Source: Methylopila capsulata (GTDB lineage: Bacteria > Pseudomonadota > Alphaproteobacteria > Rhizobiales > Methylopilaceae). Taken from it: 64,000 nt of DNA. The notes beneath the pieces were generated by a model that worked only from the letters and a program-made list of their open reading frames with translations, was not told the origin of the DNA and made no database searches. The translations under genes and the position numbers were made by a program. Every line of letters begins with the position of its first letter. Within the stretch, counting starts at the first letter, position 1. Location of the stretch: the NCBI RefSeq assembly GCF_016907975.1, contig NZ_JAFBCY010000003.1, forward strand, positions 186,001 through 250,000. The letters run 5' to 3'. Of the stretch, positions 30,491 through 38,390 are shown piece by piece.

Positions 30491-31116
<626 letters not shown>

Positions 31117-31120
<4 letters not shown>

Positions 31121-31812
31121 GTGCGGAACAGCCTCGTGCGTTGGGTTTCGTGACGCATGGACGCGATGTCGGAACGGAACGCCGCGCCGGACACGTCGTC
31201 GAGCGGCGTTCGCGCCGCGCGGGCGGCCGCCGCGAGCACCGCCGGCTCCAAAGCCGCGAGCGCCTTGAGCCCGTCGGTCTGGCCCAGCGGCACCAGCCGC
31301 ACCGCCGCCGAGATCAGATTCGCGACGCCCGCGTGCAGGAAAGCGGCGAGCGCGGGATCGCGCGGCAGGCCGTGACCGGCGCTCGCGAGCGCCACCGCGA
31401 CGGGATAGGCGACCGGACCGTCCCAGCCCCGGGCCAAGTCGAGCGCTGAGGTCGGCGCCGAGGCGCGGATCGCGGTGAGGAACGCGGTCCCTTGCGCGAA
31501 GCTCTCGAGCCGCCGTTCGCGCGACGGCTGGAACGCCGCCGCAAGCTCGGCCACGGCGACGAGCCCCGCGGCGTCGCCCTCGGAGACCGCGTCGTGGGCG
31601 CGGGCGAAGAACACCGCGTCAGACCCGAGCCCGCCGTGCTCGAGCAGCGCGTCGAGCCAGTCGACGAGCGCCGGGCGGGTCGTGACATCGCCGGTCTCGA
31701 CCGCCCACTCCAGCCCGTGGCTGTAGGAGAAGGCGCCGATCGGGAAGGCCGGCGACAGCCAGGTGAGCAGCTTCAGGAGGCCGGCGTCGGCCGCGTCGAT
31801 CCGCGCCAGCAT
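31117..31812 (-). CDS. ureF: Urease accessory protein UreF
   Basis: 231 residues with the UreF hallmarks [28 protein letters not shown], and C-terminal [20 protein letters not shown]. UreF bridges UreG and the urease-UreD complex and gates GTP hydrolysis. The C-terminal tail conserved for UreG binding ([18 protein letters not shown]) is complete. It starts directly after the ureE stop. UreD, its normal partner, is not encoded in the window. Confidence 0.96.
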
Positions 31813-32259
31813 CTAACCGTGGCCGTGGGCGTGGTAGGCGCCGCGTTCCGGGGTGAAGGGACGCGTCACCTCCGTCACCGTCGCGCCGAGCCCGCGCGCC
31901 ATGTCGGCGAGCACGTGGTCCGGCTCGATGTAGATCGCATCCTCGCGGATCTCCGCCGGCGTGTGGCGGTTGCCGACGTGCCAGGCGAGCCGCGCAAGGC
32001 GGAGCGGCGACGCGGCGGTGATCGCGAGCAGCGGCTGGGCCGCGGCCCTCACCAGCACGAGCCGTCCGTCCTCCAGCGTGAGCGCGTCGCCGTCTTCGAG
32101 GGCCATCGGCTTCTCGAGGTCGAGCAGCACGTCGAGCCCGCCCTCGCAGGCGAGCGCGATGCGGCGGCGCTGGCGGCCTTCGTGATCGAGCGTCACGACG
32201 TCCACGGTCCGCTCGGGGCGCACGGCGGCGCGGCGGAGAACGGAGACGGCGCGGATCAT
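31813..32259 (-). CDS. ureE: Urease accessory nickel chaperone UreE
   Basis: 148 residues. The C-terminal domain has the metal-binding WHVGNRHTPAEI with the conserved His, and a short tail ending YHAHGHG. That tail is much poorer in His than the poly-His tail of Klebsiella UreE. The N-terminal peptide-binding domain carries DVLLDLEKPMALEDGD. It is the first gene of ureEFG, divergent from the guanidine-type transporter genes with a 505-nt gap. Confidence 0.95.
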   Translation of the reverse strand: MIRAVSVLRRAAVRPERTVDVVTLDHEGRQRRRIALACEGGLDVLLDLEKPMALEDGDALTLEDGRLVLVRAAAQPLLAITAASPLRLARLAWHVGNRHTPAEIREDAIYIEPDHVLADMARGLGATVTEVTRPFTPERGAYHAHGHG

Positions 32260-32415
32260 GGGGCTTCTCGACCAGGGAACGGGATGCGGGAGGGCGCGAC
32301 TATGGCGGAGCGGCGGCCGGCCTGTCCACGGCGCCGAGGGCGCGGATCACAGGCGAGCGCCGCCTACAATTTAGGCGTCTGCCGCAAGTTGGGCCGTCCG
32401 TCCGCGTGCCGCCCC

Positions 32416-32530: not shown

Positions 32531-32546
32531 TGGCACGCGCCTTGCT
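32531..32546 (+). promoter_or_regulatory. Sigma-54 (RpoN) promoter, -24/-12 elements
   Basis: TGGCACGCGCCTTGCT matches the TGGCACG-N4-TTGCW consensus at every defined base, with GG and GC separated by 10 nt. A start 11-12 nt after the GC would fall at about 32556, at the front of the guanidine-I aptamer. RpoN control, usually through NtrC in nitrogen-starved alphaproteobacteria, fits a nitrogen-scavenging operon. No clean NtrC site is visible upstream. Confidence 0.8.
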
Positions 32547-32550
32547 GCAA

Positions 32551-32670
32551 GCTCGGGGTGCAGTGCGTCTAGGGTTCCGGCCGTCCGATCAGGGCGGCGC
32601 TGGTCCGAGAGACGCACTCTCCGCCAGCATGCGGGGAGACACGGCGGGGCAAAATCCCGGGAGGTCACTG
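32551..32670 (+). promoter_or_regulatory. Guanidine-I (ykkC subtype 1) riboswitch
   Basis: The conserved blocks appear in order: TCTAGGGTTCCG at the 5' side, CTGGTCCGAGAG in the middle, and ACACGGCGGGGCAAAA followed by TCCCGGGAG at the 3' side. This is the guanidine-I aptamer consensus. CAGTG (32551-32555) can pair with CACTG (32666-32670) to extend P1. Guanidine binding stabilises this fold and turns on downstream genes in known cases. It precedes the ABC transporter and GdmH genes. Confidence 0.93.
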
Positions 32671-32698
32671 CACGGGTTCGTCGCCGCGAACCGACCTC
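32661..32698 (+). promoter_or_regulatory. Candidate expression-platform hairpin of the riboswitch
   Basis: GAGGTC (32661-32666) pairs with GACCTC (32693-32698), and GGTTCG pairs with CGAACC inside it. The 5' arm overlaps the 3' strand of aptamer P1, so hairpin and aptamer cannot coexist. No T-run follows, so the switch may act through Rho, a pause or RNA structure more than a classic terminator. Confidence 0.55.
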
Positions 32699-32764
32699 CA
32701 TGATTCGTGCGCGGCGGACTCCGAGGACACCACGGCCCACATGGCCGACCGAGGAGCGTTCCGC

Positions 32765-33823
32765 ATGCTACGCAGGCTCATCGCCGCTCTCGCCCTCTCC
32801 GCGACCATCTTCGCGCCCGCCGCCGAAGCCGCGCCGAAAAAATCCTTCGAGGTCGCCTGGACGATCTACGTCGGCTGGATGCCGTGGCCCTACGCGGCCG
32901 ACAGCGGCATCGTGAAGAAGTGGGCCGACAAGTACGGCCTCGACATCAAGGTCACGCAGATCAACGACTACGTGGAGTCGATCAACCAGTTCACCGCCGG
33001 CAAGTTCGACGGCGTGACGCTGACCAACATGGACGCGCTGACGATCCCCGCCGCCGGCGGCGTCGACACCACAGCCCTCATCGTCGGCGACTTCTCCAAC
33101 GGCAACGACGGCGTCGTCTCGAAGACGGCGAAGTTGGTCGCCGAACTCAAGGGCAAGAGCGTCAACCTCGTCGAGCTCTCGGTCTCCCATTACCTGCTGG
33201 CCCGCGCGCTGGACGGGGCGGGTCTGGCCGAAAAGGACGTCAAGGTCGTCAACACCTCCGACGCCGACATGGTCGCCGCGTTCAAGGCGCCGGACGTCGA
33301 GACCGTCACCACCTGGAACCCGCTGCTCGCCGAAGTGAAGGCCGAGCCCGGCGCGACCGCGATCTTCGACTCCTCCAAGATCCCCGGAGAGATCATCGAC
33401 CTTCTGAGCGTCAACACCGAGACGCTCAAGGACAACCCGGACTTCGGCAAGGCGCTGGTCGGCATCTGGTACGAGACGCTCGCCCTGGTCGTCGACCCCG
33501 GCGAGAAGGGCAAGGCCGCGCGCGAGGCCATGGGGAAGCAGTCCGGCACCGACCTCGCCGGCTTCGAGGCCCAGCTCGCCGCGACAAAGCTGTTCGCGAC
33601 GCCGGCCGAAGCGGTGGCCTTCGCCGAGAGCCCGGAGATCGTGAAGACGATGGATCTGGTGCGCACCTTCTCCTTCGACCACGGCCTCCTCGGCGAGGGC
33701 GCGAAGTCGAAGGACGCGGTCGGCATCGGCTTCGCCGGCGGCAAGACGCTCGGCGACGCGGGCAACGTGAAGCTGCGGTTCGACCCGAGCTTCATGAAGA
33801 TGGCCGCCGACGGGAAGCTGTGA
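32765..33823 (+). CDS. Guanidine-type ABC transporter substrate-binding protein
   Basis: 352 residues with a Sec signal (MLRRLIAALALSATIFAPAA, cleavage at AEA-APKK). It belongs to the periplasmic proteins long annotated with urea carboxylase genes (YVGWMPWPYAADSGIVKKWA; VESINQFTAGKFDGVTLTNM; LVELSVSHYLLARAL). Those transporters often sit behind guanidine-I riboswitches, so guanidinium is the likely ligand. ATG 32765 is chosen because GAGGAG is 8-9 nt upstream and the signal peptide starts there; ATG 32741 has no such site. It heads the operon. Confidence 0.88.
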   Translation: MLRRLIAALALSATIFAPAAEAAPKKSFEVAWTIYVGWMPWPYAADSGIVKKWADKYGLDIKVTQINDYVESINQFTAGKFDGVTLTNMDALTIPAAGGVDTTALIVGDFSNGNDGVVSKTAKLVAELKGKSVNLVELSVSHYLLARALDGAGLAEKDVKVVNTSDADMVAAFKAPDVETVTTWNPLLAEVKAEPGATAIFDSSKIPGEIIDLLSVNTETLKDNPDFGKALVGIWYETLALVVDPGEKGKAAREAMGKQSGTDLAGFEAQLAATKLFATPAEAVAFAESPEIVKTMDLVRTFSFDHGLLGEGAKSKDAVGIGFAGGKTLGDAGNVKLRFDPSFMKMAADGKL

Positions 33824-33914
33824 CGGCGCAGCGTCTTCGCGCCGTCTCCGTCGAACGATCCCGGATCGGCCGTCGGCCGTCCGGGATGACGGCCTGATCC
33901 CAAGGGGAGCCCCC

Positions 33915-34736
33915 ATGCGTCGCGCCATGAACATCCGTCCGAGCCCGGGCGGCCGCCTGCTGCTCGCGATCATCCCCTTCGTGCTGCTGGCGCTCGTCTA
34001 CGTGCTGGGCTCGGCGGAGCGTCGGGCGGTCAACCCCAACGACAAGCTGCTGCCGCCCTTCTCCGAGATGGCGACCACCGCGACGCGCATGGCGACCGAG
34101 CCGGACAAGCGCACCGGCGAGATCACACTGGTCGCCGACACCGCCGCCAGCCTGCAGCGGCTCGCGCTGGGGCTCGGCCTCGCCACGCTGATCGGCCTCT
34201 CGCTCGGCGTCGCGATCGGGATCCTGCCGGTCGCCAACGCCGGCGGCGGCCCGCTGGTCGGCGTGCTGTCGATGATCCCGCCGATGGCGATCCTGCCGAT
34301 CCTGTTCATCGTGTTCGGGCTGGGCGAGGTGTCGAAGGTGGTGCTGATCGTGATCGGCATCACGCCCCAGATCGTGCGCGACATCGCGATGACCGTGCAG
34401 GCGATCCCGGTCGAGCAGCTTGTGAAAGCGCAGACGCTGGGCGCCTCCACCTGGCAGACCGTGGTGCGGGTCGTCCTGCCGCAGGCGCTGCCGCGGCTGA
34501 TCGAGGTGGTGCGGCTGCAGATCGGGCCGGCGTTCCTGTTCCTGATCGCGGCCGAGGCGATCGCGGCCGACAGCGGGCTCGGTTACCGCATCTTCCTCGT
34601 CCGCCGCTATCTCGCGATGGACGTGATCCTGCCCTACGTCGCCTGGATCACGCTGCTCGCTTTCATCATGGACTGGGCGCTCGCCAAGCTGTCGCGCTCG
34701 GCCTTCCCCTGGGCCTACGCGGGAGAACGCCGATGA
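33915..34736 (+). CDS. Guanidine-type ABC transporter permease
   Basis: 273 residues with about six membrane helices of the nitrate/taurine-type permease fold. The EAA loop is visible as LVKAQTLGASTWQTVVRVVL with P following. Conserved GVLSMIPPMAILPILFIVFG and ADSGLGYRIFLVRRY are present. The protein would form a homodimeric channel. An AAGGGGAGC site precedes ATG 33915. The 91-nt gap from the binding protein gene holds a small inverted repeat (CCCGGATCGGCC...). The stop overlaps the ATPase start (ATGA). Confidence 0.9.
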   Translation: MRRAMNIRPSPGGRLLLAIIPFVLLALVYVLGSAERRAVNPNDKLLPPFSEMATTATRMATEPDKRTGEITLVADTAASLQRLALGLGLATLIGLSLGVAIGILPVANAGGGPLVGVLSMIPPMAILPILFIVFGLGEVSKVVLIVIGITPQIVRDIAMTVQAIPVEQLVKAQTLGASTWQTVVRVVLPQALPRLIEVVRLQIGPAFLFLIAAEAIAADSGLGYRIFLVRRYLAMDVILPYVAWITLLAFIMDWALAKLSRSAFPWAYAGERR

Positions 34737-35497
34737 GCGCGATCTCCGTCCGCGACGTCTGGGTCGAGTTCGGCGACCAGATCGTCATCGAGAACCTCAA
34801 CCTCGACATCGCCTCGGGCTCCTTCGTCTCCGTGGTCGGCCCCTCCGGCTGCGGCAAGAGCACCTTCCTGCGCATGGTGCTGGGCCAGGACCGTCCGACG
34901 CGCGGGAGCATGACGCTCGATGGCAAGCCGCTGCCGGACGAGCCGGGCGCCGACCGCGGCGTGGTGTTCCAGCGCTACTCGGTGTTCCCGCACCTCACCG
35001 TGCTCGGCAACGTGCTGTCGGGCTACGAGTTCGCGCAGTCCCCGCTGCTCGGGAAGCTGTTCGGCGCCAAGCGCCGGGCCGCGATCGAAAAGGCCGAGGA
35101 GCTGATCGTCGCCGTCGGCCTCGGGGCCCATCGCGACAAATATCCGAGCGCCCTGTCCGGCGGCATGCAGCAGCGCCTCGCCATCGCCCAGGCGCTCGCG
35201 AAGGACCCGAAGGTGCTGCTGCTCGACGAGCCCTTCGGCGCGCTCGACCCAGGCACCCGCGCCCAGATGCACGCGCTGCTGAAGCCGCTGTGGGCGCGGC
35301 TCGGCATGACCGTGATCATGGTCACCCACGACCTGAAGGAGGCGTTCACCCTCGGCACGCGGGTGATCGCCTTCGACAAGACCCGCCATGATCCGCAGGC
35401 CCCCGGCCGCTTCGGCGCCCGGATCACCTACGACCTCGACCTCACCCGCGACGTCGCGGTGCCGGTGCTGGGGTTCGAGAAGAGGGCTGCGGAGTGA
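34733..35497 (+). CDS. Guanidine-type ABC transporter ATP-binding protein
   Basis: 254 residues with Walker A GPSGCGKST, Q-loop VVFQRYSVFPHL, signature LSGGMQQR, Walker B VLLLDEPFGALD and switch MVTHDLKEA. The sequence fits the urea-carboxylase-associated ABC ATPases. Its C-terminus ends with an aspartate-rich strand before VPVLGFEKRAAE. With the two genes before it, it completes an importer under riboswitch control. Confidence 0.92.
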   Translation: MSAISVRDVWVEFGDQIVIENLNLDIASGSFVSVVGPSGCGKSTFLRMVLGQDRPTRGSMTLDGKPLPDEPGADRGVVFQRYSVFPHLTVLGNVLSGYEFAQSPLLGKLFGAKRRAAIEKAEELIVAVGLGAHRDKYPSALSGGMQQRLAIAQALAKDPKVLLLDEPFGALDPGTRAQMHALLKPLWARLGMTVIMVTHDLKEAFTLGTRVIAFDKTRHDPQAPGRFGARITYDLDLTRDVAVPVLGFEKRAAE

Positions 35498-35540
35498 TGC
35501 GGGGCGACAGGTCGCTCTCCGATGACTTCGCCGCAGCGGG

Positions 35541-35700
35541 CGCGGGGATCCCTCCTCACGCGAAGCGTGGGGAGGGTGGCCCTTGGCGAAGCCAAGGGTC
35601 GGGTGGGGCCTTCGGCGTCGAGCGCAACGCCGCGCCCACCCCACCCGACCCCGCTGTCGCGGGGCCACCCTCCCCTGTCCCAGGGGAGGGATTCCCGCGC
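35541..35700. repeat. Large imperfect palindrome with nested hairpins
   Basis: The left arm begins GCGGGGATCCCTCC and the right arm ends GGAGGGATTCCCGCG. Inside are smaller hairpins (ACGCGAAGCGT; CCCTTGGCGAAGCCAAGGG; CCCCGCTGTCGCGGGG; TCCCCTGTCCCAGGGGA) and GGGTGGGG against CCCCACCC. It occupies most of the gap between the ABC genes and gdmH. It looks like a dispersed alphaproteobacterial intergenic element and could attenuate or process the mRNA. No ORF is credible here. Confidence 0.7.
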
Positions 35701-35837
35701 TTCATCCTGAACACGCTCCCGGCCCACCGCTCCGCGGCGGCCGGGATGACGCCGACTGTCGCGTTTTACCCGCTGATGACGTTCCCGCGCGCTCAGGCGC
35801 CCGGGAAGACGGCCAGCCTTACCCAAGGAGAAGCCGA

Positions 35838-37043
35838 ATGACCTCGACGCCAATGCGCCGCCGCCGCCTCGCAGGGCTGAGCGCCTCGCGCGAACGCCTG
35901 CGCCGCCACCATCCCGACTTCACCAAGATGGACACGCAGGGCTGGAAGGCGCTCGACGCCGAAAGCCGCCTGCCGGAGACCATGTGGCGCAAGGAGCAGC
36001 AGTGGGCGCTCGACATGGGCCTGCCCGGCGCGGACAGCATCACCGACAAGTCGATCCCGACCTTCGCCCGCGGCGAGCTTCCGCACTTCGCCGGCATCAA
36101 CACCTTCATGAAGGCGCCCTACGTCGAGAACGTCCGCGACGTCGGCAACTACGACGCCGCGGTGATCGGCATCCCGTTCGACAGCGGCACCACCTACCGC
36201 CCGGGCACCCGCTTCGGGCCGCAGGGCGTGCGCCGCATCTCGGCGCTCTACACGCCCTACAACTACGAGATGGGCATCGACCTGCGCGAGCAGATGACGC
36301 TGTGCGACGCCGGCGACGTGTTCACGATTCCCGCGAACCTCGAGAAGAGCTTCGACCAGATCACCCGGGGCGTCAGCCACATCGCCTCGTCCGGCGCGCT
36401 GCCCATCATGATCGGCGGGGACCACTCGATCGGCTTCCCCTGCGTGCGCGGGATCGCGGACGTCACCTCCAAGCGCATCGGCATCATCCACTTCGACCGG
36501 CACATCGACTGCCAGGAGAAGGACCTCGACGAGCGCATGCACACCACGCCCTGGTTCTGGGCGACCAACCTGCCGAACGTGAAGCCCACCAACCTGGTGC
36601 AGCTCGGCATCGGCGGCTGGCAGGTGCCGCGCTACGGCGTCAGCGAGGCGCGCAAGCGCGACACCAACGTGCTGACCATCGACGACATCGAGAAGTTCGG
36701 CCTCGAGAAGACCGCGGAGATCGCGCTTGAGCTCGCCTGGAAGGACGCCGACGCGGTCTACATCTCCTTCGACGTGGACTGCATCGACTGCGGCTTCGTG
36801 CCGGGCACCGGCTGGCCGGAGCCGGGCGGCTTCCTGCCGCGCGAGGCGCTCAAGATCCTCGGCCTCGTCTGCGCGCCGGGCATCTGCGGGCTGGAGGTCG
36901 TCGAGGTCTCCCCGCCCTACGACACCTCCGACATCACGGCGCTGTTCGGCACCCGCGTGATCGTGGAGGCGCTCGGCTCGATGGTGGCCCACGGCACGCT
37001 CGGCAAGCACAAATCGATCATCGACAAGCCGGTGAGCTTCTGA
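35838..37043 (+). CDS. gdmH: Ni-dependent guanidine hydrolase-like ureohydrolase (GdmH)
   Basis: 401 residues of the arginase/agmatinase fold, about 80-90 longer than agmatinases because of an N-terminal extension (residues 1-100). Metal-ligand candidates are His196 (GGDHS), Asp220, His222 and Asp224 (FDRHIDCQ), and Asp312 and Asp314 (FDVDCID). DERMHTTPWFWATN and CGFVPGTGWPEPGG resemble the guanidine hydrolase group represented by cyanobacterial Sll1077; ordinary agmatinases have DAHTD-like and DPxxAPGTG motifs instead. The reaction would be guanidine plus water to urea and ammonia. AAGGAG precedes ATG 35838. A guanidine-I riboswitch, transporter and nickel permease in the same run support the call. 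Confidence 0.88.
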   Translation: MTSTPMRRRRLAGLSASRERLRRHHPDFTKMDTQGWKALDAESRLPETMWRKEQQWALDMGLPGADSITDKSIPTFARGELPHFAGINTFMKAPYVENVRDVGNYDAAVIGIPFDSGTTYRPGTRFGPQGVRRISALYTPYNYEMGIDLREQMTLCDAGDVFTIPANLEKSFDQITRGVSHIASSGALPIMIGGDHSIGFPCVRGIADVTSKRIGIIHFDRHIDCQEKDLDERMHTTPWFWATNLPNVKPTNLVQLGIGGWQVPRYGVSEARKRDTNVLTIDDIEKFGLEKTAEIALELAWKDADAVYISFDVDCIDCGFVPGTGWPEPGGFLPREALKILGLVCAPGICGLEVVEVSPPYDTSDITALFGTRVIVEALGSMVAHGTLGKHKSIIDKPVSF

Positions 37044-37091
37044 TGGGCGCGCACCGGACATCGCCGGCGGGCTTCGGGACGCGCGCGCGTC

Positions 37092-37221
37092 TCACCTCTC
37101 CCCTGTGGGGAGAGGTCGGCCCGCAGGGCCGGGTGAGGGGGCGCGCGTCATCCGGACAGCCTGCAAGCCCCCTCACCCGCTCGGCTTCGCCTTGCGACCG
37201 CTCCCCGCTGGGGAGAGGTGA
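37092..37221. repeat. Palindromic intergenic element between gdmH and the His-rich gene
   Basis: TCACCTCTCCCC at the left mirrors GGGGAGAGGTGA at the right. Internally CCGGGTGAGGGG faces CCCCCTCACCCG. Smaller hairpins (CTCCCCTGTGGGGAG; GGCCCGCAGGGCC; CTCCCCGCTGGGGAG) are nested. It is similar in design, not identical, to the element at 35541. The remainder of the 217-nt gap has no gene. Confidence 0.7.
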
Positions 37222-37260
37222 AGGCGGCAGCCTGATCGAGAGCTGCTGAAGGAGATCGCC

Positions 37261-37776
37261 ATGCACGACGGACATGACCACCCCCACGAGCACATGGGCG
37301 GCCACTCCCACAGCCACGCGCACGCCGGCCCCGGCCACAACGCCGGGCCCGGGCGGAACGTGCAGTGGCAGACGCCGCACCTGCCGCACGGCCATGCACC
37401 GCAGCCGGAAGACCCGCGGACGACCGACCTCGACCTCGTCGAGGCGGCGTTCGTGGAGGCCTTCTCGGCGGCCTCCGACCCGACGAGCTTCCTGCGCGTC
37501 GCCGGCATCCCCTTCGTCGGCGAGGACGAGACGGGCCGGCGCTTCCACCTGCTGCGCGTCGAGGTGGAGGACCGCGTCGACGTCGGCGCCGTCGCTCCGC
37601 TTCTGGGCGGCGCGGGCGTGCGCTACGATCCGCTGCCGGCTAAGATGACCTCGCGCCGCCGGGCGCTCGCCTTCCTGTTCCACGACGGCCGCGCCGTCGT
37701 CCGCCTCGACTTCGCCGCCGCGCGCGCGCTCAGCGACCGCTCGGCGGCCTCCCGCTTCGACACGCCCTCGGCATGA
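37261..37776 (+). CDS. His-rich protein, putative nickel chaperone
   Basis: 171 residues. The first 45 residues hold 13 His in alternating patterns (DHPHEH; HSHSHAHAGPGH; HLPHGHA), a classical nickel- or zinc-binding tail moved to the N-terminus. The remainder (residues 55-171) resembles no family I recognise; it has VEAAFVEAFSAASDPTSFLR and VGEDETGRRFHLLRVEVEDR. AAGGAG lies 6-7 nt before the start. It lies between gdmH and a HupE/UreJ permease with ATGA overlap to the latter's frame. It may hand nickel to GdmH, where cyanobacteria use HypA/HypB-like GhaA/GhaB; this is inference. Confidence 0.75.
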   Translation: MHDGHDHPHEHMGGHSHSHAHAGPGHNAGPGRNVQWQTPHLPHGHAPQPEDPRTTDLDLVEAAFVEAFSAASDPTSFLRVAGIPFVGEDETGRRFHLLRVEVEDRVDVGAVAPLLGGAGVRYDPLPAKMTSRRRALAFLFHDGRAVVRLDFAAARALSDRSAASRFDTPSA

Positions 37777-37796
37777 TCCCCTCCGGAGACAGACCC

Positions 37797-38390
37797 ATGC
37801 GCCGTTCCCTCCTCCGCGCCGCGCTCGCCGGCGCATCCGTCCTCGCCCCCACGCTCGCGCTCGCCCACCCGGGCCACGGCGACGCCTTCGGCTTCGCGGC
37901 GGGCGTCGGCCACCCCGTGGGCGGGCTCGACCACTTGCTCGCCATGGTGATGGTGGGCGTGTTCGCCGCCCAGCTCGGCGGCCGCGCAATGTGGGCCGTG
38001 CCGGCCACCTTCGTCGCCGTGATGGCGCTTGGCGGCGGGCTCGGCATGGCGGGCGTCGCGCTGCCCTTCGTCGAGACCGGCATCGCGCTGTCGATCGTGG
38101 TGCTCGGCGCCGCCGTCGCGCTCGGCGTCAAGGCGCCCGTCGCCGCCGCCATGGCGCTGGTCGGCGTGTTCGCGACCTTCCACGGCTACGCCCACGGCGC
38201 CGAAGCGCCGGAGACCGCGAGCGGAGCGGCCTACGCCGCCGGCTTCCTGCTCGCGACCGCGGCGCTCCATGCGGCGGGCGTCGGCTTCGGCCTGCTCACG
38301 GCGAAGCTCTCGGCCGCGAACGGCGGCTTGGTCGCCCGCGCGGCCGGCGGCCTCGCCGCGCTTGCCGGCGTCGTGATCCTGCTGGGCTGA
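37797..38390 (+). CDS. HupE/UreJ family nickel permease
   Basis: 197 residues with a signal-like N-terminus (LLRAALAGASVLAPTLALAH) and six hydrophobic segments. The family motif HPVGGLDHLLAMVMVGVFAA with the His and Asp of the metal path is complete, and HGYAHGAEAP carries the second His cluster. HupE/UreJ proteins take up nickel for hydrogenase or urease. The start at 37797 has GGAG 9 nt upstream; ATG 37773 overlaps the His-rich stop and is an alternative. It closes the guanidine-type run. Confidence 0.9.
   Translation: MRRSLLRAALAGASVLAPTLALAHPGHGDAFGFAAGVGHPVGGLDHLLAMVMVGVFAAQLGGRAMWAVPATFVAVMALGGGLGMAGVALPFVETGIALSIVVLGAAVALGVKAPVAAAMALVGVFATFHGYAHGAEAPETASGAAYAAGFLLATAALHAAGVGFGLLTAKLSAANGGLVARAAGGLAALAGVVILLG

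Follow-up and report, generated by a model that had tools for sequence, protein, structure and literature searches.

A candidate guanidine-utilisation operon of Methylopila capsulata combines a sigma-54 promoter, an adjoining guanidine-I aptamer, and a histidine-rich partner of GdmH

We analysed a stretch of 64,000 nucleotides (nt) from Methylopila capsulata, here called the window, which corresponds to C3:186001-250000 (contig NZ_JAFBCY010000003.1) of a 4.14 Mb genome in 8 contigs. The subject is a candidate guanidine-utilisation operon at window positions 32531-38390, for which a first-pass annotation had listed an RpoN (sigma-54) promoter, a guanidine-I riboswitch, an ATP-binding cassette (ABC) importer, the guanidine hydrolase GdmH, a histidine-rich (His-rich) protein, and the nickel permease HupE. 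Every named part was found in its place, and all lie on the + strand. Missing from that list were the urease accessory genes ureE-ureF-ureG (30491-32259, - strand), which are directly divergent from the operon. The features, in window coordinates, are as follows.

32363-32379, no strand: inverted repeat CGCCTA-N5-TAGGCG, weak candidate for an NtrC enhancer site
32531-32546, +: sigma-54 (-24/-12) promoter motif TGGCACGCGCCTTGCT, TGGCACG-N4-TTGCT
32558-32665, +: guanidine-I riboswitch aptamer, RF00442, 87.3 bits (gathering threshold 63)
32558-32674, +: closing helix P0, in which GUGCAGUG (32558-32565) pairs with CACUGCAC directly 3' of the aptamer
32660-32698, +: competing hairpin GGAGGUC / GACCUCC, which would take the aptamer 3' strand; proposed expression platform, no U-run
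32741-33823, +: ABC substrate-binding protein, TIGR03427, 555 bits (cut-off 334)
33915-34736, +: ABC permease, PF00528, 70.8 bits
34733-35497, +: ABC ATPase, PF00005, 112.7 bits
35838-37043, +: putative GdmH-type guanidine hydrolase (ureohydrolase), PF00491, 252 bits
37261-37776, +: His-rich protein, constant partner of GdmH in the group; proposed nickel chaperone
37773-38390, +: HupE/UreJ-type nickel permease, PF04955, 187 bits
31813-32259, -: ureE, PF05194/PF02814
31117-31812, -: ureF, PF01730
30491-31120, -: ureG, TIGR00101, 335.6 bits

The gene at 35838-37043 had been described as a ureohydrolase with GdmH-like motifs, and this description holds: the protein matches PF00491 and keeps the metal and specificity residues. 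It scored 546 bits to the Synechocystis enzyme (7esr/7oi1) and 522 bits to the Nitrospira inopinata enzyme (9fek), to which it is 64.7% and 59.7% identical, respectively, across 357 aligned positions; the next listed ureohydrolase scored 170 bits. The ureohydrolase metal ligands are conserved as H196, D220, H222, D224, D312, and D314, and T119, H235, W326, and E356 are present as well. The guanidine-specificity residues are T97 and W305 in Synechocystis numbering (PMC11410670; papers are cited here by PMC number), and their equivalents in the window enzyme are T119 and W326. A specificity change at T97 in some loci was considered and dropped, as structure numbering makes T97 the second T of GTTY, which is T in 121 of 122 rows and a gap in the remaining one. 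A placement among the true agmatinases was not seen: no other listed ureohydrolase exceeded 170 bits, and the enzyme did not reach the cut-off of either NCBIfam agmatinase model (207 vs 302 and 161 vs 174 bits). In the enzyme tree, the window row clusters with rows from Alphaproteobacteria; saturation of the outgroup branches leaves the root uninformative, and the three paralogue rows count as two because two are identical and their stretches probably overlap. The nearest relatives by GdmH protein are Methylopila and its neighbours. Three further ureohydrolase places exist in the genome, with at most 165 bits to GdmH. These comparisons support the assignment of the window enzyme as a GdmH-type guanidine hydrolase, and the earlier reading that it converts guanidine into urea and ammonia is likewise supported, at the level of sequence, by the aptamer, the enzyme similarity, and the specificity residues. 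Enzymes of the GdmH type are nickel enzymes (PMC11410670, PMC11271267).

The His-rich protein had been listed as one part of the operon among others. Its presence at 37261-37776 stands; however, it is more than an extra part, as it is the constant companion of GdmH, whereas HupE is variable. We searched 397 genomes of the same order, calling GdmH at an E value of 1e-90 or better and scoring the best few candidates per genome, so that a remote copy could be missed. GdmH occurred in 43 genomes. An alignment search recovered the His-rich family in 39, all of them among these 43 and in none of the 354 genomes without GdmH (Fisher exact p 8e-50, kinship ignored). In all 39, the His-rich gene lies on the same contig and strand, 1-480 nt downstream of GdmH. 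Forty of the 42 GdmH loci outside the window genome were examined, and 37 have the His-rich gene directly after GdmH. The four GdmH genomes lacking the His-rich protein comprise those of loci L073, L074, and L075, and G081, whose GdmH match is partial (58% over 227 residues).

Additionally, the His-rich family was used to scan named genomes, from which the best 80 of 136 relatives were taken; this set is mostly Mesorhizobium and Ancylobacter and overlaps the first one, so the counts are not independent. GdmH lies just upstream in 79 of these 80 loci, the exception being L152 (Jiella endophytica), with an intact His-rich gene and no GdmH in front. HupE was near the His-rich gene in 42 of the 80 (upstream in six of them) and the binding protein was present in 55. 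In four loci (L097, L113, L114, and L119) GdmH and the His-rich gene stand together although neither an ABC system nor an aptamer was detected, which argues that the pair is independent of importer and riboswitch. The 100% complete genome G031 has both genes and no UreG match, and the pair thus appears independent of urease as well. Sinorhizobium fredii NGR234, a strain with established genetics, also carries both genes: on its conjugative replicon pNGR234b (L168), a GdmH 86.5% identical to the window enzyme adjoins a His-rich gene. The pair was found on five S. fredii plasmid records.

Loci L073-L075 form a separate GdmH-like clade with 53-54% identity, in which Ser replaces W305. They have neither a His-rich gene nor a guanidine-I aptamer, and two of the three have HupE directly downstream; they are perhaps nickel ureohydrolases for another substrate. 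Two Rubrobacter plasmids (L164 and L166) carry actinobacterial GdmH-like genes, 61% and 54% identical. The annotation listed for them includes no His-rich partner and no HypA/HypB, and at L164 the neighbourhood contains urease genes and a gene for a sodium symporter.

The His-rich protein has 171 residues and 15 His, 13 of them within the first 50. N-terminal Met-His is typical of HypA, and most homologues of the His-rich protein begin in the same way. It is the C-terminal half, a domain outside the His-rich part, that is conserved, and structure prediction modelled this domain with high confidence. The homologues fall into two subfamilies with 15 invariant positions in common, including H26-N27. 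No Pfam or NCBIfam family matched the protein, HypA (PF01155) included; when 20 homologues were scanned, NCBIfam gave nothing, and Pfam at E <=0.1 gave one chance-level match for each of two. Two Rhodobacteraceae plasmid records annotate the corresponding gene as 'hypothetical protein'. Compared with UreE, HypA, and HypB, the likeness lies in the His-rich segment and the difference in the lack of a sequence match.

The contrast that the first-pass annotation drew with the cyanobacterial system, in which GhaA/GhaB are HypA/HypB-like nickel chaperones, agrees with our search, since this genome has no HypA match; 32 of the 43 GdmH genomes have none either. Therefore, considering that GdmH is of a nickel type, that the partner has a His-rich N-terminus and mostly a Met-His start, that HupE is adjacent, and that HypA is absent, we propose the His-rich protein as a dedicated nickel chaperone. 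HupE itself was confirmed as a HupE/UreJ nickel permease (PF04955).

The three ABC genes were also identified as annotated. The binding protein more probably starts at the in-frame ATG at 32765, which precedes a stretch resembling a signal peptide. NCBI names TIGR03427 a 'putative urea' ABC binding protein; because of the guanidine-I riboswitch and the GdmH enzyme, we infer guanidine as its ligand.

Upstream, the sigma-54 motif TGGCACG-N4-TTGCT is the sole match in the window (mean of 0.02 in shuffles), as the RpoN promoter claim would have it, and fits TGGCAC-N5-TTGCW perfectly. With a match defined as at least 10 of 11 letters, a sigma-54 site begins 25-30 nt 5' of the aptamer in 67 of 94 leaders (the window, 70 from named genomes, and 23 others, with some duplicates), compared with 22 of 1,880 random control windows from the same loci. 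Transcription from sigma-54 promoters begins about 12 nt past the -12 element, and the first base of the message would thus nearly coincide with the first base of the aptamer. Promoter and riboswitch appear fused, implying a putative "nitrogen-starved AND guanidine present" gate.

For the rhizobial NtrC motif TGC-N11-GCA (PMC10746234), an upstream copy was found in 13 of 38 related leaders and in 108 of 3,800 control windows; the palindromes had been noticed beforehand, so this test is not independent. The repeat at 32363-32379 does not fit this motif and fits 6 of 8 letters of the palindrome TGCC-N9-GGCA, whose 8 letters are all present in 9 of 40 leaders vs 0.3% of 2,400 control windows in a post hoc test. 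The classical half sites TGCAC-N7-GTGCA were rejected as candidates, as at least 8 of 10 letters were matched in 4 of 31 leaders and 69 of 1,240 controls, which is little difference.

The guanidine-I riboswitch was confirmed by the RF00442 search (32558-32665, E 2.9e-14), and in two sets of related loci the aptamer is present in 33 of 43 loci of one set and 70 of 80 of the other. All six core pairs of P0, formed by the first six bases and CUGCAC, are possible in 40 of 66 distinct leaders, and one pair is A-U in 31 leaders and G-C in 9, with both sides changed. When the partner was slid, complete helices were found in 0 of 66 leaders at ten offsets, but in 10 of 66 at +10. A helix of at least 8 base pairs (bp) between the aptamer 3' strand and the sequence beyond it is available in 34 of 66 leaders vs 103 of 1,320 shuffled ones, and the mean fold z of the region over the 66 leaders is -1.15 (simple letter shuffles). 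The window's own competing helix has 7 bp, a length reached by 21% of shuffled cases. No run of four T, as expected of an intrinsic terminator, was found within 110 nt 3' of the aptamer in the window leader, and such a run follows the aptamer in 4 of 42 leaders listed. The aptamer is thus a guanidine-I member, but its platform differs from an intrinsic terminator with a U-run; due to the shuffled frequency of 7 bp helices and the missing U-run, the competing hairpin is only proposed as the expression platform.

A second guanidine-I-like aptamer was detected elsewhere in the genome (locus L002 1501-1606, - strand, corresponding to C4:183634-183739) with 41.4 bits, under the gathering threshold of 63. 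It lies upstream of an open reading frame that, as read from its sequence, resembles an EamA-type transporter. Its 3' part departs from the consensus, and it may therefore have another ligand or be degenerate.

Taking these parts together, we consider it likely that the operon is a nitrogen-scavenging system for guanidine in which the His-rich protein supplies nickel to GdmH. When nitrogen is limiting, transcription would be initiated by sigma-54 polymerase, probably together with NtrC, at or very near the first aptamer base. Guanidine-bound aptamer would stay intact and block the competing hairpin that takes its 3' strand, so that the transcript would be used only when guanidine is present. 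Guanidine would then enter through the ABC system and nickel through HupE, the His-rich protein would deliver the nickel to GdmH or insert it in place of GhaA/GhaB, and GdmH would split guanidine into urea and ammonia. Urease, with its accessory genes ureE-ureF-ureG divergent next door, would finish the pathway. The sequence itself shows the parts with their order and families, the linkage between the His-rich protein and GdmH, and the spacing of promoter and aptamer. In this scheme the biochemical steps are all inferred, as are the involvement of NtrC, the direction in which the riboswitch acts, and, most of all, the handling of nickel by the His-rich protein. A further-reaching version seems to us evenly poised between right and wrong: a new enzyme-specific nickel metallochaperone family, with a disordered His-rich arm starting with Met-His and a conserved alpha/beta domain of unrecognised fold docking on GdmH, would replace the HypA/HypB-type pair throughout alphaproteobacterial guanidine hydrolases and be inseparable from GdmH, in an operon that reads nitrogen starvation and guanidine in series.

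Several observations weigh against nickel delivery by the His-rich protein and against the proposed control. On the regulatory side, 27 of the 94 leaders have no sigma-54 site, mainly those of Ancylobacter and Ensifer/Sinorhizobium, the literature motif TGC-N11-GCA was not found 5' of this window's promoter, and the window hairpin is not clearly more stable than shuffled sequences (fold z -1.99 and -0.46). On the side of the protein, no UreE homology was seen (profile comparison probability 0.6%; no UreE Pfam match), and fold searches returned no convincing relative of the C-terminal domain, none in PDB, which is not in itself proof that the fold is new. Stretches rich in His have roles in storage or detoxification as well, UreG is present in 40 of the 43 GdmH genomes, and UreE/UreF/UreG could load GdmH instead. 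Finally, a chaperone may not be needed: no chaperone is known for the GdmH of comammox Nitrospira, which is active (PMC11410670), and one of two studies found metformin hydrolase active in E. coli in the absence of its chaperones (PMC11271267).

In an alternative reading, the operon still serves guanidine use, while the His-rich protein is just a nickel store or buffer and GdmH is loaded by UreE/UreF/UreG or by free nickel. The divergent ureE-ureF-ureG neighbours, the UreG matches in 40 of 43 GdmH genomes, the long His-rich N-terminus, which suits storage, and the comammox GdmH that works with no known chaperone (PMC11410670) speak for it; but the three ure genes adjoin the operon in only 3 of 40 GdmH loci, G031 has the His-rich protein without UreG, and the conserved half is the domain without His. 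A general nickel store would also be expected outside GdmH genomes, but occurs in 0 of 354, and we regard this reading as rather unlikely. The His-rich protein could also be a stable component of the GdmH hexamer, or help to assemble it, without carrying metal; this would suit the conserved folded domain and the strict one-to-one pairing and gene order, in which the His-rich gene directly follows GdmH in all 39 genomes. We judge this improbable, as neither of the two GdmH enzymes with solved structures, which are homohexamers or single-chain assemblies, contains such a subunit (PMC11410670) and the His-rich tail would be left unexplained. Hardly any credence goes to an operon serving another guanidino compound, such as agmatine or guanidinobutyrate: public plasmid records do annotate the enzyme as agmatinase family, and a characterised relative has a low affinity for guanidine, which leaves some room (PMC11410670), but the identity to the Synechocystis enzyme, the conserved specificity residues, the guanidine-I aptamer, the scores below the agmatinase cut-offs, and the ureohydrolase paralogues elsewhere in the genome point the other way.

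The enzyme, the importer, and the riboswitch are of known kinds, and the guanidine hydrolase route is known. The Synechocystis GdmH operon (sll1077) shares the guanidine-I riboswitch, the ABC importer, and the 64.7% identical enzyme, and its urea is handed to urease, as proposed here (PMC12186494). It differs in that a His-rich protein of another family and HupE replace GhaA/GhaB here, and in the sigma-54 promoter directly 5' of the aptamer. The comammox Nitrospira locus shares the riboswitch and a 59.7% identical GdmH; however, an APC permease replaces the ABC importer, and no nickel-loading protein was found there (PMC11410670). The metformin/dimethylguanidine hydrolase operons (MefH, MetCaCb) resemble the operon in nickel ureohydrolase genes and adjoining hupE (PMC11399263), but have hypA and hypB chaperones and two enzyme subunits, and score 122-125 bits against the window GdmH. 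Guanidine carboxylase (urea carboxylase-like) operons share the TIGR03427 binding protein and guanidine riboswitch control (PMC12186494), whereas their route is an ATP-dependent carboxylase and none of those genes is in this operon.

New to us are the obligate His-rich partner and the promoter-aptamer fusion; nothing on this partner or on sigma-54 coupling was found in the open-access literature, which is no proof that they are unpublished. Nickel acquisition by GdmH in comammox is stated as unclear (PMC11410670), and the tight linkage between GdmH and the His-rich protein makes the nickel supply of non-cyanobacterial GdmH directly testable. Through its position just 5' of the aptamer, the sigma-54 site links the use of guanidine to nitrogen starvation, an argument for guanidine as a natural nitrogen source of these bacteria and not only a poison.

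The genome contains three urease alpha genes (C4:44218, C3:346849, and C2:30375) and three UreG genes, one of which is that of the window. Two urease alpha/UreG pairs lie close together (on C3 and C2). No UreG match lies on the contig of the C4 alpha gene, and no alpha gene lies near the window ureE-ureF-ureG, so these two may serve each other.

Two spacers of the operon, at 35540-35700 (ATPase to GdmH) and 37092-37221 (GdmH to His-rich gene), contain long inverted repeats that are imperfect, with a self-complementarity of about 70%; blastn found no second copy of them in the window. Since the gap between GdmH and the His-rich gene is at most 30 nt in 15 of 39 related genomes, these repeats look like insertions.

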